Below the pieces are notes generated by a model. It was given only the letters and a program-made list of their open reading frames with translations. It searched no databases and was not told where the DNA came from. The position numbers were made by a program, and so were the translations under genes. This document shows positions 2,181 to 31,154 of a stretch of 64,000 nucleotides of DNA, one piece after another. Numbering within the stretch: position 1 is the stretch's first letter; every line of letters starts with the position of its first letter. Origin of the DNA: Planctomycetota bacterium. GTDB taxonomy: Bacteria > Planctomycetota > Phycisphaerae > Phycisphaerales > SM1A02. The DNA is taken from NCBI GenBank assembly GCA_003671075.1, contig QWPT01000001.1, forward strand, positions 1 through 64,000. Direction: 5' to 3'.

Positions 2181-5100
2181 CTAACGGAAGTTGGCGGAGA
2201 GCGAACCAAGCGACGATTGTTGCGACTGAAGTTTGGCGAGTGCGGTTTCCATCGCCGAAAACTGCGCCTCGTAACGCACGCGCCGCGACTCGAGACGAGT
2301 GTCGAAGCGGGAGATGCGGTCCTGCAGTCCGTCGAGCTGCTCCTGGAAATTGCGATTGGCAATCGTGGTCACGCCGTCGACAGAGTTGGTGAGTTTCTTC
2401 AGAACCTGGTCGAAGAGGTCGCCAAATCCGAGCTTCGAATAAGTCGTGACTGGGCTCGAGTTCACAATCGTCACGCCGCCGACAGTCGAGCTCGACGAGG
2501 TCGCCGCAACCTCGAAGCCTGTGAACAATTCCTCGACTGCCGCAGGATCTGTGTCGTAGGCGGTCTTGAACTTCTCTTCGTCGAACACCAGTTGGCCGTC
2601 TTTGCCGAAGCGGATGCCAACTTGCGAGAGATAGCGGTAGCGCCCCTCGACACCCTTCGCCGGACCCTGCGCGGTCTGGACCAGTTGCTGGCGCAACCGT
2701 GCCACCGTCGAGTTTCCCAGCAGCGGTCCGCGCTTCTCCGACTCTGGATCGTACTTATCGTATTCGCTGATCCGCGCCAACGCATCGTTCACTGTGGTGA
2801 CAAGCTTCGTCACATCGGTCTTGATGCGCTCGAAGTCACGCGAAACTTCCACCACCGTCGTACCGCCCGACTTCTTCGCCTCGACCTCGAGTCCAGACAC
2901 GATGTCCTTGAATGAATTCGTCGAGCTGGTGAACAGAAAGCTGGTCGCCGGATTTCCCGTACCGAGAAACAGCGAAGCATCACGGCCCTCGACGGCGCGA
3001 ACAAGACCAAGGTCGACATCGCCGGTATCAACCAGAAGCTGGCCAAGCGTTCCACCGACGCTCGATGCAAGACTCAATCGAAACGGCGTCGTGCCCGCGC
3101 CCGCATTCACGATAGACGCGTTCACGCTGAACTTCGCGTTGTTGATCTTCGCCACGACATCATTGAGCGTATCGGTGACGTTGAGATCAATCGTCTTCTC
3201 GAGCGAACCCTCGATATCGTCGCCAGCACGCGCCGCAGTGCCGAGAATTCCAATGCCTCGCGCAACCGATCCAGAAACATCGATCACCGACATCGGGTTG
3301 ATCGCCGAGCCCGTGTTGGTATCGATCAAATCGATGCCATCGCCAGTGTCATTGAGTCGCGCCTCAACGAAGAGTCCGCGCGAGTTGATCTCGCTGATCA
3401 CATCGTAAACGGTCACTGCGTCGCTGCCCACATCAACAACCGCACTGTCTCCAGTCGAGTCGGTGATGCGGAATGTTCCCGTGCCCACGCCCTTGCCAAA
3501 TCCAAGCGATGCGAGTGTGGTGCCGAGTGCGAGATGGCGTCGATCGAGATCGTCGCCGCGAATCGCAGTGCCACTCACCGTGCCTTCAAGCCCAAGCGCG
3601 GTTGCGCCGTTGCCGGTGATGGTGAGCGCTCCAGTTCCACCGCTGCTGTCGCGTGCCACGAGTGAACGCCCGCTATCGCCGACCGAAATCTCGATATCAA
3701 CGCCAGCAGCAACGGCGCCGGCGTTCACCGCGCGCACGAGTGAATCAAGTGTGTCGTGACTTGTGAAGTCGGTGAAGGAGAAGGTCGCACCCGATCGGTC
3801 GGTCAGCGAGATCGCGGTCGGCGATGCGAGTCCGGATCCACCGTGCAGATTGTCGTTCCGCACCGTCTCGATGCCCGCAGCCACACGCCATCCTTCGGCA
3901 GAGCCCGTTCCCACCGCGCGATAGAGACCGAGGTCGCGCGCGGTGCGCTGCCCGACAGCCGCGCCGAAGCTTGAACCATCGGTTGTACCTGCCACCACAT
4001 CGATCGACGATGTCGCCGCAACAGACAGCGCGATCCCCGTACCCGACGCGTTGACCGATGCCGTCACCAGACCATTGGTCTGTTCGTGGATGCGATCAAA
4101 GAGATTCTGCACCGTCGCGGCGCGCGGCGTCGCAACCTTGTTTCGAATCGTCGAACCCGTGATGATGTTGGATGTCGCGCCAGTAGGCCCAGTGAAAATG
4201 CCGAGGTCCTTCGCCGCGCGTTCGCTGTTTGGTCCAGCGGCGAGCACCTTGGGAACTCCCGCGCCACCGAGGGAATCGGTCAAAACGAAGTTGGTCCCGC
4301 TTGCGCCAAGACTCAGCACAACTTGTCCCGCGGCGACCGATCCATCGAGTTCAGAATTGACGCGAGCAATCAACTCGCCGACCGTCGTGACCGCGGGATC
4401 CTGCACTTGGCCATCAACAATGACGGCGCCGAGGTTCACGCCAACACTCACGCCCGACGATGTCACGATGGTGAAGTCGTCGGCATCAGTGGAATTGATG
4501 CGGATGCCAGTACCGTTGTTGAGATCGCTCAACTTGGTCGCGGCCGTAATCGGTTCGTCCTTGCGTCCGAGCGAAATGTCGTAGTTCGTTCCATCCACAA
4601 CCAGGCGGAAGTCCGCGACATTGTCGCGAATGAGCACACCAGCCCCGTCATTGAGCGATGCCAGGCCAGTGTTCACGCCGATCTGATTGAGTTGCACGCC
4701 CGTCACCGAGCCGCCCGCGTAGGTTCCGTCGATTCCAAAGTCAGTCGCGATCGAACCAGCGCCGACATCTTCGATCTTGAGCGCCGCCGCTCCCCCGCTG
4801 TCATCACGAATAGACAAGCGCTCGTTCACGACCGACGCGGTGATTCCAACGCCTTCGGCCGCGTTGATGCGTTCCACCACCTCGGAAAGCGTGACCGCCG
4901 TCGAAAGATCGACCGTTGCCGTGCGCGCCAGTCCGTCGGTGAACTTGATCGATCCGCGCGAGATACCCGCGCCACCACGAAGCTCCGCAAGCGACGCGTC
5001 GCGATTCAACGAGGCATCGCCCCACTCAACGGTCATTGAGTCCAAGCCAAGCGGAGTCGCGTTCTTGGTGGCAAAACCTCGCGACAAAAGCTGGCTCGTC

Positions 5101-9464: not shown

Positions 9465-9986
9465 ATGAAGTGCATCATTGGTTTCATTGTTCTTGCAGGA
9501 TGTTCCGCAACCGCATCAGCCGAACTGGTTGGTTCGTACACCGTTGGCAGTGGGGCGAGCTCCAGCCAACTGCTGTTTCAGTTCACCAACACCCACTCGT
9601 ATCTCTATGAGATCCGCTACGACGGCGCGCTCTTCGGCGATGACTTGCTGGCGATTGCTGCGGCGGCGCAGCCTGGGTTCTTCTCCTACCAAGTGACGTC
9701 GTTCAGCTTCGGCGATGCGCTGCTCAGCGTTTCAATCGGGGCGGATGTCGACACTGGGTTCGGCAACCCGCCCGACTACCTCGACTACTGGCACTACTGG
9801 ACCAAGGAGCTGGGCGATACAGCGTGGACCGAATCGTTCGTGGGCTTCGGCGACCGTGCGATCTCCAACGGATCGTGGGATGGCTGGGTGTTCAACAGTG
9901 CTGCGGCTCCGATGGCGGTGCCGACTCCAGGAGTATTGGCGGTCATGGCTGTTGCCGGATCACTGCGCCGAAGATCGCGCGCGTAA
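9465..9986 (+). CDS. Exported protein with PEP-CTERM-like anchor, possibly cobalamin or cobalt related
   Basis: The ATG at 9465 is supported by AAGGAG eight bases upstream and a clean signal peptide (CIIGFIVLAGCSATASA). The mature part is about 135 residues. It ends in a sorting signal: VPTPG, a short hydrophobic helix and RRRSR, the PEP-CTERM-like pattern. The segment YWHYWTK...W...GDRAISNGSWDGWVFN resembles, from memory, a small domain of 'YW-YW...G-VDGW-F' proteins found near cobalt and cobalamin transport genes. With the riboswitch-like leader this suggests surface capture of B12 or cobalt. The sequence pattern is direct; the function is inference. It could equally be an ordinary surface protein. 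Confidence 0.6.
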   Translation: MKCIIGFIVLAGCSATASAELVGSYTVGSGASSSQLLFQFTNTHSYLYEIRYDGALFGDDLLAIAAAAQPGFFSYQVTSFSFGDALLSVSIGADVDTGFGNPPDYLDYWHYWTKELGDTAWTESFVGFGDRAISNGSWDGWVFNSAAAPMAVPTPGVLAVMAVAGSLRRRSRA

Positions 9987-21136: not shown

Positions 21137-24100
21137 ATGAACGACCAACGGGAAAATGAATCCAGTGCGGACGGCGATGCCATGCCCGGTCCGAGTCTGC
21201 GTGAACGCGCGCGTGCGTGCGATCCGCAGCCGATGGTGCCACTCGCGACATGCGTTTTCGCGGGAGGTTTGTGGATCGGATGCGCGTTGGCGCAGACAAG
21301 CGGATTCGCAAGAGTCGCGCTCGCTGAAGCGGCGCGTCCATTAGCGTTGGCGTTGCTCATTGTGGCGATGGCGGCAGGAATGGTGCTGGTTGGATTAGGT
21401 GTATGGATGGCATTCGGACGCGTGAAGAAGGATGAACTTGGAAACAAGAAGGCGGCGGAAAAGAAAGTGTGGAGTGGAAAGGTTGGGAGTGTGAGCGTCG
21501 ACGACGCAGCAGAGGTCCATTGGTCGAAGTTCGCGCTGCTACTGCTGTTGATCGCGCTCTGTGCCGGCACACTTGGTGCGGGGATGCGGTTTGATCAGGT
21601 CATCGAACAGGCGATGGTGCCGATTGTGATGACGGATGGAGGAGTTGGTGGAGGGGTTGGTGGAGGGATTGGCGGCGCGGTTGGCGGCGCGGCGTACACA
21701 GCGACTGCGATGACCGAAGGCCAGCTCGTGACCGTTGAGGCGACTGTTGCGAGTGGGTTTACTTCGATCGGATTCGGCTCCGACATCCTCGCAAAGTACT
21801 TCCGTAAGCCACCGAAGCATCAGTGTCTGATGCGCGACATCGAGTTCATTGGCGATGATGGCGCGCGCATCAACATGCCAACAGGGGCGTTCCTCTCGAT
21901 CAGCGTTCTTGAGCAACCTCCTCCTTGGAAAGTCGGAGATCGGCTGTCCATCGTGGGAAAGTTCATGCCGATCGCGCGCAGTGTTGTGCCGTCGACAATC
22001 GACTTCACGGAAGTCGCGGCCCGACGCGGGCTCATAGGTTCTTTGGTGGTTGAGTCTGAAAATCTGGCGACCATGGTTGCGCAATGGCGGTCGAGAACAC
22101 CGATTGGCGATTGGTTCGCACGTGCACGGGAATCGTTGCGCGGAAGAATGCGAGAGGCGTTGTTGGCCGGGGTTCCCGGTGCTGGAGGAGAGAGTGGAAT
22201 CCGCTCGATGCTGGTCGCGCTTGTCTTAGGCGATGTCGAGGACGGATATCGATCGATCGAGAATAGCTTTCGCGCTGTCGGGCTATCTCACATCTTGGCG
22301 ATATCAGGATTCAACCTCGCGGTGCTTGGATGGGTGGTCGCATGGATGGCGGGGTTGTTCATCCGCGACGAACGTTGGCGCGCGGCACCGGTTGCGATGG
22401 CCGCACTGATCGCGCTTTGGGTGATGGCGCCGGCGGCGAGCGCGATGCGTTCGGCGTTGATGGCGGTCCTCGGCGCGAGCGGATGCGTATTGAAACGCGA
22501 TTGGAACGGCGACGCAATCCTTGCCTTCGCGGCGATCGCCATGCTGCTTCATGATCCATCCGCCGCGCTCGGTCCAGGGTTTCAATTGAGCTTTCTCTGC
22601 GTGATCGCGTTGAGAAAGCTCGCGCCCGCCATCCGCACGCGATGGCTTGCTTGGATGCCTGCCGACGACAGGCGTCAAGATCATCCTGCGTGGATCGCGC
22701 TCAGCGGAGAGTACGCATCACGCGCGATCGCTGCGGGACTCGCGGCATTCTTCGCGAGCGTTCCGGTTGTTCTTGTGCAGTTTGGTTCGCTGCAACCATT
22801 CGGAACTCTGCTCACATTTCTCTGCACGCCACTCTCGACGGTCACGCTCGCGATCGCATATCCAAAGGCAATCATCGGTGCGATCTGGCCTCCGCTCACG
22901 ATTCCGGTCGGACCAATTCTCTGGATCTCCGCCTGGCTGCAAGTTGAGTTGGTCGAGCGATCGATCACGGCAGGCGGAGGCACGGTGCAAGTTGGATCGA
23001 TCGCTTCGTGGACCGGCGTGGCGATGATGGTGTTGCTCTTCGCAGCATTCCTCAGCAACGCACGTGTCTGGCGCGTTGCAGCGTGGGGTGCGATCGGGGT
23101 CATCACTGTCAGCCTGCTGAGCGGGCAACACCATGCGCAAAGGCCACGGTTTGAAATCACGATGCTCGCCGTCGGCGATGGTTCGGCGTATGTGGTGCGA
23201 AGTGGTGGATCAACGGTGCTCTTCGATGGCGGATCGAGCTCAACGGGGAGCGTCGCCGCGCGTGCGTTGCTTCCAATGATCGGCCGTGAGAGCTCCAACA
23301 GGATCGACGCGATAATCGTCTCGCATCCAAATCTTGACCACTTCAGCGCGCTACTTGATGTGGCACGGTACGCGCGGGTAGGTGAGTTGATTGTGCACCC
23401 ATCGTTTGTTGACGCGGCTCGCCGCATGCCAGCGGTCGATGCGTTCATAGACGGTGTGAAAGGAATGGGTGTGCGGGTGCGCGAGGTATCCGCAGGAGAC
23501 TCAGTGCGCATTGGAAAGATGACATGGACCTTCGTCTGGCCCGATGCGAACTTTAGGTCTTCCCATGACAACGACCTGTCGTTGGTGGTGCGCGCTACCC
23601 ATGACTCGGGCGCGCGCGCACTCTTTTGTGGCGACATCGAAACGGAACCTGCTGCACGGATCTCGGCGAGCGCCCGCAACAACCGGCTCAACATCTCGTG
23701 TGATGTGCTCGAGCTTCCACACCACGGCAGTTGGCGGGAGGCTGTCGTGGACTACATCGAAACTGCGGCGCCATCGATCATCTTGCAATCGACGGCCCGA
23801 CGGCGCTTCGATGCCGATCGTTTCGCGCCCCACCTTTCACCAACAACCTTCAGGTTCGTCACTTGCCGCGATGGAACGGTTCGGATCACACTTGGCGAAG
23901 ATGGAAGGCTTCATACGACTGCTTGGGACAGCGAGGCAATGGGTGGTTGGCGGCCGATGGGCGTTTCGTCACTGCGCGACAATGATGAAACAGGCGCGAT
24001 CAAGCTCAATCCTGTCACCGGCGATGCCATTTCCGCCATCGGTGATCCGCATCTCGAGTGTCGTGGCGTTCGCAGCCGACTCCCTGATCGAAATCGGGAT

Positions 24101-26593
24101 ACGACGATGATTAGCGTCAAGAACGAATCGCTCACTGTGGGTCGAACCAAACGTGAAGTCGACCTCTACGCGCGCGTCCATCGGCGCAGGCTCGGACAAG
24201 GCGATCTCGCAAGAGAACACGATCGCGCTACCACTCTTGGCTACAGAAGGAGGAAGTTCGTAACGAGCGGTCAACGGTCCCGCGAATTCGATCAAGGCGA
24301 GCCCGAGCAACGCGCGCGCGCTCGAACCGATATGGCTGGCGTTGGCGATGGCGTAATGAAAACTACCGGTCGGCACCTTGATCGATGGCTTTCCGAGAAC
24401 CGCCAGCGGAAGCAATCGCGATGGATAAAGGAGACCTGCGACTGGATTGGCGGCGCTGTTGTCGGTCGTCATCGTTGGACGAACGCCAAGAAGCAGCGGA
24501 TCGGACAGACGGAATCCCCATCCTTTGACGATGTCAAACTGGAGTTCGTCACCATCGACGACCGACCCGTCAACCGCCCAGATCCGTGCGCCCGACTTTC
24601 GTTCGCTGGTCTGCTTTGCTTGCGCGTCGGATCCGTCGGGAGTCCGGGCAAACGCGATGGCTGCAATTCGATCATTGGAAAGCTTGCGCCGTTCGGAACC
24701 AGCTTGCCCCGCTGGCGATTCGTTCGACGCAATTGGCTCGAAAGCGATGTCGGAGCCGAGCGACTCGACAAAGCCTGTGGTGGTATCGCCGTTGAGAAAG
24801 AGAACCGTGTCGCCATCCTCACGTCGAGTTGGCGTCAGCGACCCACGGAACCGAATCGACGCGACCTGTTCCATGGACAGCGGAATCGCGCCGATCCAAC
24901 GGTGATCCCAATAGTTCCTGTCGAGCGCTGCACGAAAATTCCCAGGCAGGCGCTGGCCATCATTAGTTTCGAGAAGTCCGAAAGAGATCGGAGCTGGGGC
25001 GGTGAGGTTGCTGTCGGCGTCCACTCCACCAACCGCGATGGTGCGCTGTGTGATGAAGGCAATGACATCGCTGCAAGGAAGAACGCGCTCGGTTGCACTG
25101 TTGGCTTCGATGACCGACCAACGGTCCGCGTCAATGGAGTGAAGCTTGCCGGCAATCCATCGGCCATCGGTGGAAAGAACCCGAACCAACGCGTCACTCT
25201 CAGCATGAGCGGACTGCGACCAAGCCACGGGAACCAACAGCAGCAGCGAAGCGAGAACCGCCTCGGCGCAACAACGCGAGGGATTTCGTCGGAGCCTGTT
25301 TTTGCGCATCAAGCGTTGCGTTGTTTGATTCGACATGTTCGGGAAACACTAGCGCTGGAAGATTGGGAGGTATCGCTTAGGCATTTGCAGAACGATCATC
25401 GCCATTGCGGTCGCGTATGCGTTTCCGTTCTGCCCATCAGCCCACGACCCATCCGTGTTCTGGCGAGCAAGGAGCTCTTCGCGAATCGCCGGCCACCACG
25501 CGCGCCAATGCTCGCCACCAGCGAGATACATGGCCTGAACGGCGTAGTAGTGACCGTAGAAATAGTGGGGTTGCATGAAGTTCGCTCCCGCAGGTGCGCC
25601 GTTTCCCGCGCGCGGAAACGCGTTCTTCTTCAGGTAATCAAGACCGCGGGCGATGGACTCATCTTCATAAACACCCGCGTAATAAAGACTCGCGATGCCC
25701 GCCGCTGTGCGCGGCCACTGCGAGCCTCCCTGGTCGCGCATGTAGCGAAACCCACCGTCGGGATTCTGGCACTCGCGCACATAACGCACCGCCTCGTCGA
25801 TGGTGGATTTGGGCACCTTCACGCCCGCGTTGCGAGCACTGCGAAGTCCCATGATCTGACAGATGGTCATCGAGACATCCGCATCAGCGGGAACAGGGTT
25901 GTAGCGCCAGCCGCCTTCATCGTTCTGGCTAGCGACGATCAACTGAACAGCACGAACGAGCGCGTCGCGAACGCGGTCATCGTCGTTGTTCATGCCGTAA
26001 ATCTCGCCGAGGAAGAGCGTGGCGAAACCGTGACCGTACATCGGACCGTGAGTCTCGTCGGAAACGAGCAAGCCCGTTTCACTCGCGTGGGCGAGAACGA
26101 AGTCGAGGGTCTTCTGGACGCAGTCGCCGAAATCGCCGCGTCCAGGGACATTCCCGTCGGCCATGAAAGATATCGCGCAGAGGCTCGACACTCCGATGTG
26201 TTCGCCGTACCGACCTTCGCCGAACGAGCCATCTGGCTTCTGTTGCCGGCGCAGATACTCAAAGCCTCGGCGAACCGCATCTTCGAGTCTTGGCGTGATC
26301 TCAGAATCCACTGGTGCGTTCTCCGCACCTGCATCTGCCTTCTTACGCTCGGTGGTCGATGGGTCGACAGGGTTGGTCTGGGCCTTCGGCGCGCTGGTGT
26401 CGGCTGCTTTGGATTCAACTTTGGGTGGAGCTGTGGGCGCAGCGACTTCCTGTGGGGAAGCGGTCGCGGCCTGTGGACTCGCATCCGCGGTCCACCGACC
26501 TTCAAACAGCGACGACTGCATTGCGAGCGATGCCAACATAAACGCGGTCATCGCAGAACTCATCGTGATGCTTCCTCAGCGAGCCTGCGGTAG
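21137..26593 (+). CDS. comEC: ComEC/Rec2 family DNA-uptake channel protein; open frame extends far beyond the family domain
   Basis: The first about 930 codons (to about 23930) are a complete ComEC. There are N-terminal helices, an OB-like domain, the competence core (LVLGDVEDGYRSIENSFRAVG, then LSHILAISGFNLAVLGWVV), several more helices, and a metallo-beta-lactamase-like domain. That domain has SHPNLDHFSA, LFCGDIE and ELPHHGSW. The role would be passage of single strands through the inner membrane. No stop follows: the frame continues to 26593, antisense to two convincing minus-strand genes, and that tail shows no domain. In another frame a stop lies at 23983-23985, so a one-base error or mutation near the end could explain the read-through. 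A glycine-rich run (GGVGGGVGGGIGG) lies near residue 170. Confidence 0.7.
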   Translation: MNDQRENESSADGDAMPGPSLRERARACDPQPMVPLATCVFAGGLWIGCALAQTSGFARVALAEAARPLALALLIVAMAAGMVLVGLGVWMAFGRVKKDELGNKKAAEKKVWSGKVGSVSVDDAAEVHWSKFALLLLLIALCAGTLGAGMRFDQVIEQAMVPIVMTDGGVGGGVGGGIGGAVGGAAYTATAMTEGQLVTVEATVASGFTSIGFGSDILAKYFRKPPKHQCLMRDIEFIGDDGARINMPTGAFLSISVLEQPPPWKVGDRLSIVGKFMPIARSVVPSTIDFTEVAARRGLIGSLVVESENLATMVAQWRSRTPIGDWFARARESLRGRMREALLAGVPGAGGESGIRSMLVALVLGDVEDGYRSIENSFRAVGLSHILAISGFNLAVLGWVVAWMAGLFIRDERWRAAPVAMAALIALWVMAPAASAMRSALMAVLGASGCVLKRDWNGDAILAFAAIAMLLHDPSAALGPGFQLSFLCVIALRKLAPAIRTRWLAWMPADDRRQDHPAWIALSGEYASRAIAAGLAAFFASVPVVLVQFGSLQPFGTLLTFLCTPLSTVTLAIAYPKAIIGAIWPPLTIPVGPILWISAWLQVELVERSITAGGGTVQVGSIASWTGVAMMVLLFAAFLSNARVWRVAAWGAIGVITVSLLSGQHHAQRPRFEITMLAVGDGSAYVVRSGGSTVLFDGGSSSTGSVAARALLPMIGRESSNRIDAIIVSHPNLDHFSALLDVARYARVGELIVHPSFVDAARRMPAVDAFIDGVKGMGVRVREVSAGDSVRIGKMTWTFVWPDANFRSSHDNDLSLVVRATHDSGARALFCGDIETEPAARISASARNNRLNISCDVLELPHHGSWREAVVDYIETAAPSIILQSTARRRFDADRFAPHLSPTTFRFVTCRDGTVRITLGEDGRLHTTAWDSEAMGGWRPMGVSSLRDNDETGAIKLNPVTGDAISAIGDPHLECRGVRSRLPDRNRDTTMISVKNESLTVGRTKREVDLYARVHRRRLGQGDLAREHDRATTLGYRRRKFVTSGQRSREFDQGEPEQRARARTDMAGVGDGVMKTTGRHLDRWLSENRQRKQSRWIKETCDWIGGAVVGRHRWTNAKKQRIGQTESPSFDDVKLEFVTIDDRPVNRPDPCARLSFAGLLCLRVGSVGSPGKRDGCNSIIGKLAPFGTSLPRWRFVRRNWLESDVGAERLDKACGGIAVEKENRVAILTSSWRQRPTEPNRRDLFHGQRNRADPTVIPIVPVERCTKIPRQALAIISFEKSERDRSWGGEVAVGVHSTNRDGALCDEGNDIAARKNALGCTVGFDDRPTVRVNGVKLAGNPSAIGGKNPNQRVTLSMSGLRPSHGNQQQQRSENRLGATTRGISSEPVFAHQALRCLIRHVRETLALEDWEVSLRHLQNDHRHCGRVCVSVLPISPRPIRVLASKELFANRRPPRAPMLATSEIHGLNGVVVTVEIVGLHEVRSRRCAVSRARKRVLLQVIKTAGDGLIFINTRVIKTRDARRCARPLRASLVAHVAKPTVGILALAHITHRLVDGGFGHLHARVASTAKSHDLTDGHRDIRISGNRVVAPAAFIVLASDDQLNSTNERVANAVIVVVHAVNLAEEERGETVTVHRTVSLVGNEQARFTRVGENEVEGLLDAVAEIAASRDIPVGHERYRAEARHSDVFAVPTFAERAIWLLLPAQILKASANRIFESWRDLRIHWCVLRTCICLLTLGGRWVDRVGLGLRRAGVGCFGFNFGWSCGRSDFLWGSGRGLWTRIRGPPTFKQRRLHCERCQHKRGHRRTHRDASSASLR
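23969..25336 (-). CDS. Exported protein of unknown function, last gene of the MoxR operon
   Basis: This 455-residue protein has a signal peptide (CCAEAVLASLLLLVPVAWSQSAHA) after a basic start. The mature part looks beta-rich. It includes two similar stretches about handling a 'gene expression-like' SH3/Sm barrel pattern (STDGRWIAGKLHSIDADRW; LETNDGQRLPGNFRAALDR). A C-terminal jelly-roll-like region follows (VEVDFTFGSTHSERFVLDAN). No catalytic motif is seen. It starts 12 bases after the preceding gene, so it is almost certainly in the operon. Its whole length is antisense to the extended comEC frame; its signal peptide and coupling make it the more credible coding strand. Confidence 0.65.
   Translation of the reverse strand: MSNQTTQRLMRKNRLRRNPSRCCAEAVLASLLLLVPVAWSQSAHAESDALVRVLSTDGRWIAGKLHSIDADRWSVIEANSATERVLPCSDVIAFITQRTIAVGGVDADSNLTAPAPISFGLLETNDGQRLPGNFRAALDRNYWDHRWIGAIPLSMEQVASIRFRGSLTPTRREDGDTVLFLNGDTTTGFVESLGSDIAFEPIASNESPAGQAGSERRKLSNDRIAAIAFARTPDGSDAQAKQTSERKSGARIWAVDGSVVDGDELQFDIVKGWGFRLSDPLLLGVRPTMTTDNSAANPVAGLLYPSRLLPLAVLGKPSIKVPTGSFHYAIANASHIGSSARALLGLALIEFAGPLTARYELPPSVAKSGSAIVFSCEIALSEPAPMDARVEVDFTFGSTHSERFVLDANHRRIPISIRESAANATTLEMRITDGGNGIAGDRIELDRACFIIVAQ
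25349..26563 (-). CDS. Prenyltransferase/squalene-cyclase-fold repeat protein, probably exported
   Basis: This 404-residue protein has a short hydrophobic start, a Pro/Ala/Lys-rich linker (about 30-95), and then an alpha-alpha barrel of terpene-cyclase-type repeats. Repeated helix ends read QQKPDGSFGEG, QNDEGGWRYNP, QNPDGGFRYM and QNTDGSWADGQ, a QW-motif-like series. The acidic DXDD motif of real squalene cyclases is absent, so binding is more likely than cyclisation. Planctomycetes often carry such proteins in MoxR/VWA operons. Its ATG overlaps the stop of the upstream gene by four bases (26560-26563). Confidence 0.72.
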   Translation of the reverse strand: MSSAMTAFMLASLAMQSSLFEGRWTADASPQAATASPQEVAAPTAPPKVESKAADTSAPKAQTNPVDPSTTERKKADAGAENAPVDSEITPRLEDAVRRGFEYLRRQQKPDGSFGEGRYGEHIGVSSLCAISFMADGNVPGRGDFGDCVQKTLDFVLAHASETGLLVSDETHGPMYGHGFATLFLGEIYGMNNDDDRVRDALVRAVQLIVASQNDEGGWRYNPVPADADVSMTICQIMGLRSARNAGVKVPKSTIDEAVRYVRECQNPDGGFRYMRDQGGSQWPRTAAGIASLYYAGVYEDESIARGLDYLKKNAFPRAGNGAPAGANFMQPHYFYGHYYAVQAMYLAGGEHWRAWWPAIREELLARQNTDGSWADGQNGNAYATAMAMIVLQMPKRYLPIFQR

Positions 26594-27387
26594 TACTCGC
26601 GGGTGAGTCGCTCATAGATCGTGGAGACACGGTCGCGGCGGCCTTGCAGCACGAGTTCACGCACGCGCTCGGGGAGCTGTCCCCACTCAATGCGAGATTC
26701 CGTGAGCTCCTGTCCATCGACGACGACATCGTCGCGAGACTGGTTCTTATCGCCATCCGATGGCTGGCTCGACCCTGCCTTGGCGCTCCCTGGCTTCGGC
26801 TGGCCTTGCTTCTGTTCTTGACCGTTCTTCTCACCTGGATCTTTCTTCTGATCCTTCTTTGATGACTGCTGCTTCTTCGAACTCGATGACTTCTTCTTCT
26901 GCTGCTTCTGCGCCTCATCAAGAAGGCGGTCAAGCGTCCGCACGACATCCTCTTGAATGCGTTGGGTACCGAGCCCCGGATCCTTCGCGTCAGTCAACCG
27001 ATCGGAGGCGTTCTTCATTCCCTCGATGGCGCGCTGGACAAGGTCCTGCATCGTTGCCTCATCGAGTGATTGTGCGAGTCGCTTCTCCTGCGCGCGACGA
27101 GCGGAATCCTCTGCGCTCGTGCTTCCGGCAGTTGCTTCAGGAACGCCGAGCAGATCATCGAGTGACCTTGGTTCAGATCCCGGCGATTGCTTAGCAGGGG
27201 GAGTCGCACCGGTCGGTGGCTCTATCGGCGGCGGGGTAGATGGCGCGGTCACTGGCGCAGTCGCCGGCGGATCACCCAAAGCCACCGACCAGGCGGCATT
27301 GTTGGAGCCGAGCAATCCGATCGAAACAATGATGGTGGTCAGTGGAAACATTTGGTGCACCATGCAACGAGAGTATCGGTGTGTCAT
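26560..27387 (-). CDS. Exported lysine-rich protein of the MoxR operon, unknown
   Basis: This 275-residue protein has an N-terminal hydrophobic segment (about 14-36) and a Pro/Thr-rich linker. A helical segment follows (EDSARRAQEKRLAQSLDEAT to DRLLDEAQKQQ), then a very Lys/Gln/Ser-rich disordered stretch (about 160-215), and a short conserved-looking tail (RIEWGQLPERVRELVLQGRR). The tail resembles the C-terminal piece often seen after DUF4175-like proteins in planctomycetes. Four-base ATGA overlaps on both sides indicate translational coupling. Function is unknown. Confidence 0.6.
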   Translation of the reverse strand: MTHRYSRCMVHQMFPLTTIIVSIGLLGSNNAAWSVALGDPPATAPVTAPSTPPPIEPPTGATPPAKQSPGSEPRSLDDLLGVPEATAGSTSAEDSARRAQEKRLAQSLDEATMQDLVQRAIEGMKNASDRLTDAKDPGLGTQRIQEDVVRTLDRLLDEAQKQQKKKSSSSKKQQSSKKDQKKDPGEKNGQEQKQGQPKPGSAKAGSSQPSDGDKNQSRDDVVVDGQELTESRIEWGQLPERVRELVLQGRRDRVSTIYERLTREYYRRLAEEASR

Positions 27388-30300
27388 TGAACACCTCGGC
27401 GCGAATCCAATGAATTTCCCACAGACAAGCTTGGGCGTGGTGCGCTTGGAGGAACGGATGGGGGAACGGACGGGGGAACAGGCGGGGTAATCGTCGGTCC
27501 TGACTCCTTCGGCGAGATCTTCTCGGCGATCTTCGAGCCGAGTTCCACGATCCGCTGTTGGCGCACGGCGATTTCGGCAAGGCGCTGCGAGCGCGTAGTG
27601 ACATCCAATTCCGACGCACGCTCCGCGAACAACCGTGTCCGTTTGGCCAATGAATCCTGCATCGCTCTCAGCAACTTGATCTCGGCGGCCGGCGGCACTG
27701 CGCCACCCGACTGACCTCCGCTTCCACCGCTATCGCCACCCTGATCCGCCTCCTGCTCGCCGAATTTATCCTCGTCCTTCTTCGGTGCATCGTTCTCATC
27801 GAGTGCAACGACGATCGCGCTCAGCGACGCCACGGCGTCGTCTTCACTGGGCATCGCCTCGGCGGGCCGCCCTCCGCTCAGGCTCGCTTTCGCTTCGGTC
27901 AACGCGGCGTCGATGGCATCGTGCATCTCCACGAGTGCGTCGGATCCCTGCACATCCTCTTCCTTGGCTCGGAGTTCAGCGATTGCCAAGCGCAGTTCTT
28001 CCTGCGCGGTTCCCAGTCGCCGACTCTCAATCAACTCGCGACGTCCGAGCACCGCCGCATCTGCCGGCACGATCTTCTCGACAGATCCGCGCAATGCCGC
28101 CTGACGCTCCAGAAAATCGCGGTACTTCACCAGCAACTCTTCGCGCTTCTCCTCTTCCGCACGCTCCTCGGCGCGATCGGCAGCCTGCTCGGCATCGACC
28201 AGCGCGTCGTTGAGTGATTTCAGAGCCGAATCGACCGCGAGGGTTGTGTCATTTCGATCGAACGGATCGCCGCGAAGATTCCCCGCGACCTTGGCGAGAC
28301 TTCCTGCCGCACCATCGAGCGTGCGCGCCACTCGGGCGGCCTCTCGACCAGTCGCCCGCGCGTCGCTGGCAACACCACGCGTGTTCTGCGACAACTTGCC
28401 CGCGCCAAGAGCGGCACGCTCGCGTTGCGCGTCTGCATCAGCGTCGTTTCCGTCTCCGGCCGCCGCCACTTCGTCGCGCACATTCTCAGCGTCTTTGATG
28501 AGCCGTCGAATCGAATCCGCAAGCGACTCCAATTGCCGCGCGAGTTCCTCGGCCTGAACCTTTCGATCCTCGTTGAGTGCCTCAGCTGCTTTTTGCAGCG
28601 CCGACGCCGCGCGATCTTGCGCCTGCTTTGATTGGGCAAGGCGATTCTGACTCGAGTCCTTGGCGGCCTGCTCCAACTCCTCGCGGACCTTGCCGTCCTC
28701 AGCCGCCTTGGCCGCTTCCTCGAGCGCGCGCGACTGTTGTGGATCTGCATCCTTCAACGCCTGCGAACGCTCCTTGAGTTCCTGCACGACCTGCTCAGCC
28801 TCGGTGGCTTCCTGCTGCTGCTTGTCGGCGAGTGCATCGATCTCCGCGCGTGCGTCGGGCGAAAGTTCCTCGCGCCCTTCACCATTGGAACGCCGCGCAG
28901 CCTGATCGGTTTCGCGCGCGGATTGGCGAACCTTGTTGGCGAGTGCATCTAGACGGCGCTTGGCAAGCCAAGAATCCTCATCGCGATCAAGCAACGCGAC
29001 GAGATCCTCAAGCTCCGCGCGCACAGCGTCCTGAAGTTCCGCTGCTGATTTGGCAGCGGCTGTGGCTGCATCCTTGGCAGTAGCCTGATCCTGGCCAGTC
29101 TTGCTTTCAGCAGCAACCTTCTGCTCGCGCGCACGCTCCACCGCCCCGCTTGCTTCGGCGCTGCGAGATTCCGCGGCCGCCGTCAGCTCACGGGCCTGCT
29201 CGGCGAGCTCCGACAACACGCCGTTCGCGCGATCATTCTTCTCGAGTCGAGCGATCGCCTGCTCGGTTGCTTCGCGCATACGCGCCGCACCTTCGGTCAC
29301 CGCAGCCTGCAATTCAGCGAGTCCGCGCTCGGACGGATCACGCTCGACGGCGTCGCGCGCCTTTGCCTGGCGCTCATCCACGCGCATCGCGTCGCGACGC
29401 ACGCCGGCAAACACACCGCGGATCTGCCGCTCGAACTCATCATCGCCAACAATGCGCAAGATCCGCGGCGCGCTGCGCACACGCTCGTGAGCCGGCTGAA
29501 CGCTGCCGCCATCAAACGCGTCTTGTGCATAAGCGCGAAGGACGATGGAGTCGCCCGCGGACAATTTGAGTTTCGCAATATCGAGCATGCGCTCCACGCT
29601 CGCCTCGGCGGCCGCACCTTCCTCGCCGTTCACGCCAGCCATCACCTGCGCCGGCTCCTCAAACACCATGCTCTCCACCGAATCCTTGCCAATACGCGTC
29701 GCGATCTCGATACCTGCCTTCGCAAGCCCGATGTCGTCACGCGCATCGGCGCGCATCGCGATCTGCGCGTCAACAACGACCGACTCATCCTGAACTGGCT
29801 CGACGATGGTCGCCGAGGGCGGGCGATCAGCAATGGTGTCGAACGCGAGAATGATCTCATTCTCTCCGGCAATGCCGTCGGAATCGATAAGCGTCAGCGC
29901 AAGCCGCGTCGCCTCGACCGCCGTACATGAAACCGTCCAGTGAGCACCGTCCGCTTCATCGACCACAATCGTCACCGGCATCGTCGTCGCGCCGGGTTCG
30001 GCACCACTCGATGACACTTGCTTCAACGGCGAATGAGCGGGATCAAACGCGAGTGCGCGTGTCATCCTGAGATCAAAGACAATCTGACTGCCGGCGAGAA
30101 TCGGATCACGAAGAATGCCGCGCGAGCCACTGCAATCGCCCAAGTCTTCAACGCGCAACTGAACTGCGCGCGCCGCGTAGGCCGGCGGTTCGATCCGCGC
30201 CTGCGCCGATGCAATCGCTGGCGGCGCGACCAATCGCACCGTAGCAATCTCCGTGGTCGCATCGCTGGTCATAAAGCGCACCTCGATGCGCTCGCCATCC

Positions 30301-31154
30301 GCATCAACGAAACGCTCGAATTCGCCCGACGGTTGACGAGCAAGGCCAACCTCAATCCAATCGCCAACAACGCCATCGCGAGTCACGCGATACTCCGCGC
30401 GCACGCGTTCACGCTCGGCCTCGCCTTCGGTCATGCGCGCACGCAGCGCAAGCGGACGGCCGCGCGCAGCAACCGATCCGTCGACGATCATTCCCGCCAA
30501 CGCCGTGCGCGCCGGCCACACCGCATCACTCCAAGGCATCAGCACGCGACGCGCCGCAATCGAAGCAGTGTCCGGCTCAACAATCGCAAATCCAATCGCT
30601 GATCCAACGCAGAGCAACGCCGCCGCGAAGCGCGTTCCCATCGGCTTCCAACGAATCACCTTGCCAAGCGACGCGCCGCTCGAGCGGTCCTCGGCATCGC
30701 GAATCGCCCGAGCCGCGAGCGCACTTCCGCGAGCTGCGCCCGACAATTCAAACTCGACAGCGGATGCAAGCTTGCCTTGCAACTCAGGACGCATGCGCTC
30801 GATGCGCAGTGCAATATCCACTGGTTGCGGCCTGAATCGAAACGCGGGCAACACGACCTTGCGCACGTCGACAAACATGAAACCGGCGATCACCGCCAGC
30901 ATAATTCCCCGCAAAACGCCTGGAAATCGCACGACCGCATCAACGGCCGCCACGCCCATCACACTCGCAAAAAACAACACCACCAGCGCCGCCACCGCGC
31001 CCGTAATGCGCAGCACCCGCGCGCGTCCAGCAAGTCGAACTACGGTGCGCACCATCTCTGATCGAACTAGCTCTGATCGAACCAGCTCCGAACCCGCCGC
31101 ATTTCTCATGCCGCCTGGTTGAGCACCATTGTTGTCGTCGAATTCGTTCGTCAT
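27384..31154 (-). CDS. Large membrane-anchored coiled-coil protein (DUF4175-like) of the MoxR operon
   Basis: This 1256-residue protein has two or three N-terminal membrane helices (about 50-110 and near 165-185), then a beta-rich extracytoplasmic region (about 190-490). Long heptad-patterned coiled coils run from about 560 to 1130 and are very rich in Ala, Glu, Arg and Gln (for example EQARELTAAAESRSAEA, RQLESLADSIRRLI). The C-terminus has Gly/Ser/Pro tracts. The layout matches the DUF4175-like proteins that follow BatA/VWA genes in planctomycetes; no enzymatic motif is visible. Near its start, SELVRSELVRSEMVR is a small duplicated segment. The start lies 19 bases after the upstream gene. 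Confidence 0.65.
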   Translation of the reverse strand: MTNEFDDNNGAQPGGMRNAAGSELVRSELVRSEMVRTVVRLAGRARVLRITGAVAALVVLFFASVMGVAAVDAVVRFPGVLRGIMLAVIAGFMFVDVRKVVLPAFRFRPQPVDIALRIERMRPELQGKLASAVEFELSGAARGSALAARAIRDAEDRSSGASLGKVIRWKPMGTRFAAALLCVGSAIGFAIVEPDTASIAARRVLMPWSDAVWPARTALAGMIVDGSVAARGRPLALRARMTEGEAERERVRAEYRVTRDGVVGDWIEVGLARQPSGEFERFVDADGERIEVRFMTSDATTEIATVRLVAPPAIASAQARIEPPAYAARAVQLRVEDLGDCSGSRGILRDPILAGSQIVFDLRMTRALAFDPAHSPLKQVSSSGAEPGATTMPVTIVVDEADGAHWTVSCTAVEATRLALTLIDSDGIAGENEIILAFDTIADRPPSATIVEPVQDESVVVDAQIAMRADARDDIGLAKAGIEIATRIGKDSVESMVFEEPAQVMAGVNGEEGAAAEASVERMLDIAKLKLSAGDSIVLRAYAQDAFDGGSVQPAHERVRSAPRILRIVGDDEFERQIRGVFAGVRRDAMRVDERQAKARDAVERDPSERGLAELQAAVTEGAARMREATEQAIARLEKNDRANGVLSELAEQARELTAAAESRSAEASGAVERAREQKVAAESKTGQDQATAKDAATAAAKSAAELQDAVRAELEDLVALLDRDEDSWLAKRRLDALANKVRQSARETDQAARRSNGEGREELSPDARAEIDALADKQQQEATEAEQVVQELKERSQALKDADPQQSRALEEAAKAAEDGKVREELEQAAKDSSQNRLAQSKQAQDRAASALQKAAEALNEDRKVQAEELARQLESLADSIRRLIKDAENVRDEVAAAGDGNDADADAQRERAALGAGKLSQNTRGVASDARATGREAARVARTLDGAAGSLAKVAGNLRGDPFDRNDTTLAVDSALKSLNDALVDAEQAADRAEERAEEEKREELLVKYRDFLERQAALRGSVEKIVPADAAVLGRRELIESRRLGTAQEELRLAIAELRAKEEDVQGSDALVEMHDAIDAALTEAKASLSGGRPAEAMPSEDDAVASLSAIVVALDENDAPKKDEDKFGEQEADQGGDSGGSGGQSGGAVPPAAEIKLLRAMQDSLAKRTRLFAERASELDVTTRSQRLAEIAVRQQRIVELGSKIAEKISPKESGPTITPPVPPSVPPSVPPSAPRPSLSVGNSLDSRRGVQ

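Follow-up and report, generated by a model that had tools for sequence, protein, structure and literature searches.

Long overlapping genes have reportedly been described in Pseudomonas aeruginosa by Kreitmeier et al. Antisense overlapping genes have also been found in bacteria by ribosome profiling, with examples in E. coli O157:H7 (PMC9927249; reviewed in PMC7457138). The translation and function of long bacterial antisense frames are disputed, because selection at the amino-acid level is hard to tell from selection on the opposite gene. The frame of the HIV-1 antisense protein was detected through the depletion of synonymous codons that would create stops in it (Cassan et al. 2016, 'StopStatistics', as outlined in the OLGenie paper, PMC7531306). 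In the excludon, the 3' ends of convergent transcripts overlap, and a long mRNA also acts as antisense RNA on its convergent neighbours (PMC7154746).

The comEC locus described here has parallels to these systems. Like the bacterial antisense overlapping genes (PMC9927249, PMC7457138), it contains a long putative coding frame opposite an established gene, probably young and formed by overprinting. Unlike them, this frame extends a conserved gene in phase, runs across two entire genes (here m1 and m2) over 2.6-3.8 kb, lies codon-on-codon with them and displays pure stop depletion in 14 species without detectable amino-acid constraint. As far as the HIV-1 case is summarized in the OLGenie paper, the evidence is of the same kind, namely the absence of codons that would be silent in one gene but stops in the antisense gene. 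However, the HIV-1 frame is viral and in register sas12, whereas the comEC tail is in the codon-on-codon register, named sas13 in the nomenclature of PMC7531306, and has as controls other genes, a member of the genus in which the register is broken, and outgroups. As in an excludon, the comEC mRNA would serve as antisense RNA to the convergent m1 and m2, but the excludon overlap is untranslated (PMC7154746) and the comEC overlap would be translated throughout. Up to residue ~930 the product is an ordinary ComEC subject to purifying selection, like the ComEC/Rec2 DNA-uptake channel; unlike the ComEC of the other genera examined, the ComEC frame of this genus has a long tail.

The window, a stretch of 64,000 nucleotides from a planctomycete genome (G000), carries on its plus strand an open frame of 1818 aa at 21137-26593, with no stop until 26593. 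Its comEC body (21137..23929), the part common to other genera, was delimited by cross-genus alignment and contains a Competence domain (PF03772, residues 362-641, E 6e-35) and an MBL-fold domain (PF00753, residues 679-870, E 1.7e-12) in profile searches. The last of these Competence and metallo-beta-lactamase matches stop at residue ~870-890, and the cross-genus alignment stops at residue ~925-935, about position 23,930, which agrees with the initial annotation that ComEC similarity ends near 23930 in a frame open to 26593. The product scores above the cut-off of the domain model TIGR00360 and, with 134.8 bits against a cut-off of 190.05, below that of TIGR00361, the NCBIfam ComEC/Rec2 equivalog; it is a ComEC-family protein by its domains, not the curated equivalog. 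The junction from the conserved ComEC end to the m1 stop codon (23930..23968) has no in-frame stop. It is followed by a tail of 874 codons (23969..26590), codon-on-codon antisense to m1 and m2, and by the terminal TAG (26591..26593), which reads, in another register, across the conserved Tyr-Tyr pair of m3 and which no synonymous change in m3 can remove. Terminator-like sites around comEC, m1 and m2 numbered 7, with 6.5 expected by chance. Separately, we found no match to DprA (PF02481) in this genome, although it is present in 14 of the 16 genus members; the gap is probably due to incompleteness of the metagenome-assembled genome.

The tail faces two genes of a minus-strand operon. Predicted from its fold, m1 (23969..25336, minus strand) encodes a secreted beta-rich protein with a CBM51-like C-terminal sandwich, and m2 (25349..26563, minus strand) encodes an alpha-alpha toroid protein (squalene-cyclase/prenyltransferase-like) according to profile matches. 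The start of m2 is overlapped (ATGA) by m3 (26560..27387, minus strand), which together with m4 (27384..31154), of the same operon and strand, uses TCA normally and served as a control. Profile searches returned no family match for m1, though it is conserved in other genera and its AlphaFold model is confident (pLDDT 79). The C-terminal part of this model resembles a CBM51 carbohydrate-binding sandwich (PDB 2vmi, TM-score 0.68 by target). Pairwise dN/dS among the species of the genus is far under 1 for both genes. Taken with the domain match of m2 and the fold of m1, this confirms the earlier view that the antisense genes at 23969 and 25349 are real: both are genuine protein-coding genes.

We searched for comEC in 61 genomes, which are metagenome-assembled and incomplete; those of the genus come from lake-type metagenomes. 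The gene order trpD-comEC-><-m1-m2-m3-m4 is kept in the genus. comEC open frames measure 1399-2139 aa in most congeners, compared with about 840-1020 aa in most other genera; the short values inside the genus reflect a contig end (G008), a frame break within comEC (G009) and a restart (G010). In 13 of the 14 congeners that could be followed, comEC runs in frame through the convergent m1 and m2, and in the remaining one, G010, the tail is a separate, restarted frame. Tail length is 854-1260 codons across the 14 species. The longest belongs to G009 (L039), where m2 (2851-5088) carries an N-terminal insertion of ~300 residues, seemingly duplicated around a run of N, and the comEC tail is stop-free through the insertion. 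No tail like that of the genus was found in any ComEC of the other genera examined; there comEC ends normally, and m1 and m2 use TCA, TTA and CTA freely.

The initial annotation had offered a lost stop or a small hidden frameshift, and the +1 frame does stop at 23983-23985, as it had predicted. However, we give a negligible probability to a frameshift from sequencing or assembly, or to one recent loss of the stop, since other species at 42-63% ComEC identity share the same extended frame and keep it free of stops. A stop was indeed lost, apparently in the ancestor of the genus and not as an accident of one genome.

Two further observations concern comEC itself. In L046 (G031), which belongs to a related genus and shares the gene order, comEC already runs ~157 bp (9760-9917) antisense into the 3' end of m1, in a different register; the long overlap may have grown from such an ancestral state. 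In G002 and G011 (L032/L041), the dS of comEC is 0.20, against about 0.9-1.8 or saturation in the adjacent m1-m4, which suggests recent recombination or transfer of comEC between them.

Because the overlap is codon-on-codon, a plus-frame stop in the tail corresponds to a TCA, TTA or CTA codon in m1 or m2. In the window, none of these occurs among the 68 Ser and 66 Leu codons of the two genes, while neighbouring genes have them. The same holds for all 14 tail species, with TCA in 0 of 583 TCN Ser codons and TTA or CTA in 0 of 872 Leu codons; in the same species, the TCA share is 17% in m3+m4 and 10% in comEC/trpD/lgt. Based on the control rates of each genome, about 111 stop-equivalents would be expected in m1+m2, and none is observed; the expectation is still about 50 after removal of close relatives and of the two species with broken comEC frames. 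The tail frame contains 0.00 stops per 100 codons, the other two plus frames 1.8-4.7. Only m1 and m2 are empty of stop-equivalents among the well-sampled neighbouring genes, the other genes of the minus operon having 12-17% TCA. Congeners share 42-66% ComEC identity, apart from one pair at 90%, which places synonymous sites near saturation. Where a congener and the window both have Ser or Leu, the codon is the same in only 35-46% of cases, although the species are not fully independent.

It is conceivable that m1 and m2 avoid the three codons for reasons of their own, such as expression or tRNA supply, and that the open frame is a by-product. Chance yields long antisense open frames in G+C-rich genomes. 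In about 205 kb of the genome of the window, 79 called genes reach 300 codons or more; all three codons are absent from 5 of them, the longest run being 926 codons. A long codon-on-codon antisense frame is therefore unusual but not unique in this genome alone; across the genus it is far beyond chance. An artefact of codon usage nevertheless appears very improbable. The missing codons are only the three stop complements, and other A-ending codons are present close to control levels (GCA 15% in m1+m2 and 17% in controls, CCA 22% and 26%, ACA 15% and 16%, GGA 21% and 21%); ATA is not missing either. Moreover, m3 and m4 of the same operon use TCA normally, and the phase with comEC is conserved. 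m1 and m2 themselves use the three codons in other genera, in one member of the genus (G015), beyond the frame's own stop, and in L048 and L050, where comEC is not directly convergent on m1.

Between the ComEC match and the m1 stop lies a spacer of 0-90 nt, which has at least 10 distinct lengths and, wherever the fusion is unbroken, is always a multiple of 3; m1 and m2 are mutually in phase in all 14 species. The frame of nine species continues for about 30 nt past the m2 start and stops at the conserved Tyr codons of m3 in another register, so that it reaches about as far as synonymous changes can hold it open. In four others it ends within the 5' end of m2. From there to the m2 start, ~176 m2 codons contain 10 stop-equivalents, including the four terminating codons, and none lies upstream of the frame's end in these species.

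Two species serve as natural experiments. In G015, both the comEC-m1 and the m1-m2 registers are broken, and m1 and m2 contain 11 stop-equivalents where 11.5 are expected. We considered a truncated version of the tail in another register, but the stop-free run of 295 codons is unremarkable for a register in which 1-6 stops are present in other species. G015 is nested within the genus tree (bootstrap 90), which would make it a case of tail loss; the alternative that it branched before the tail arose has a p-AU of 0.07. In G010, comEC ends in TGA, and a TTG overlaps this stop (cccTTGAgcg) with GGGG 6 nt upstream. The tail frame reopens at this TTG and stays stop-free, with 0 stop-equivalents against 16.5 expected. 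A separate yet stop-free frame is what one would expect of an independent antisense gene inside m1 and m2, with its own start and simply in phase with comEC. However, we consider such a gene unlikely, because elsewhere no stop divides the tail from comEC, and the spacer keeps a phase that an independent gene would not need.

These codon counts show that selection holds an antisense extension of comEC open and in phase with comEC. The extension measures 854-1260 codons across the 14 species, one of which has it as a restarted frame. A frame under selection to stay open implies translation, and we infer that the tail would be translated by ribosomes arriving from comEC, because only a ribosome would single out these three codons in this one register, and because the depletion stops at the frame's own stop.

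The product itself bears little resemblance to a conventional protein. Searches of Pfam, NCBIfam and PDB gave no match to the tail, and its AlphaFold model, made with 14 species, has a pLDDT of 30, whereas m1, modelled from the same DNA and the same species, reaches 79; this led us to reject a known or folded protein. Nor could we find a conserved tail sequence: a synplot-like scan, pairwise dN/dS and an OLGenie-like ratio revealed nothing beyond control genes. The scan detected no excess synonymous-site constraint in m1 or m2 over control genes, with third positions saturated; these third positions, at which the tail codons begin, vary as freely as those of control genes. The OLGenie-like dNN/dNS was 0.71 for m1 and 0.69 for m2, against 0.71-0.84 in control genes, with overlapping ranges. 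The protein sequence found to be constrained at the overlap is that of m1 and m2, not that of the tail. The initial annotation had named a conserved extended tail in relatives, together with poorly conserved minus-strand genes, as what would speak against its reading; the openness of the tail is indeed conserved, but so are the minus-strand genes.

The tail is therefore not selected as an ordinary domain; what selection maintains is either translation without interruption or a tail that tolerates changes of sequence. The latter would mean that ComEC is made as a protein of ~1,800-2,100 residues, whose long, hydrophilic, probably disordered C-terminal extension tolerates almost any sequence. 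It could act as a spacer, a bristle or in weak binding, with only its length, and hence the absence of stops, conserved. This reading is in line with the in-frame fusion of 13 of the 14 species, whose spacers are multiples of 3, with the hydrophilic tails, which have few or no membrane-like stretches, and with a mild composition shift (fewer Arg, more Gly and Asp/Glu), which could reflect weak selection at the protein level. However, the length varies as given above, and the composition is accounted for by the opposite genes; since the shifts lie inside the range of control genes, we discarded a selected composition. A conserved basic DNA-binding tail was rejected on the net charge, which is not conserved and near zero in several species. 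The C-terminal DASSAxRR derives from the conserved end of m3, read in another register, and at least 4 species lack it, so we did not retain it as a functional C-terminus. The break in G010 would, furthermore, free the tail from ComEC; it could be an assembly indel, in which case this argument against an attached tail falls. All in all, we regard a sequence-tolerant protein tail as a serious rival, though rather less than probable.

Uninterrupted translation is favoured by us because the tail amino acids are without detectable constraint and do not look like a folded protein. In the mechanism that we consider quite probable as a whole, comEC would have lost its stop in the ancestor of the genus, and the frame would have entered the convergent m1 and m2 codon-on-codon and been kept open across them since. 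This is the sole antisense register in which a synonymous change in the opposite gene can remove every stop (TCA for Ser, TTA/CTA for Leu). Selection would then have cleared every TCA, TTA and CTA from m1 and m2 until the frame meets, in m3, the next stop that cannot be avoided. It is a little short of an even prospect that what matters is uninterrupted translation acting as a ribosome escort or translated 'excludon'. Ribosomes would escort the comEC transcript over m1 and m2 and shield its antisense part from Rho and from naked RNA pairing, and comEC expression would act on m1 and m2 as a translated 'excludon'. Rho, which suppresses antisense transcription (PMC5540618), was found in 15 of the 16 genomes. 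More tentatively, the frame may be held open for the act of translation itself, with the peptide as a sequence-free by-product. A benefit to the cell from the antisense transcript is conjecture.

For the dispute over long bacterial antisense frames, the codon-on-codon register provides a clean test, in which only translation of the antisense frame would bar three synonymous codons. At this locus, they are absent in 14 species and are back beyond the frame's own stop and where the register is lost. The comEC locus separates selection for being translated from selection for protein sequence, and makes the question directly testable.
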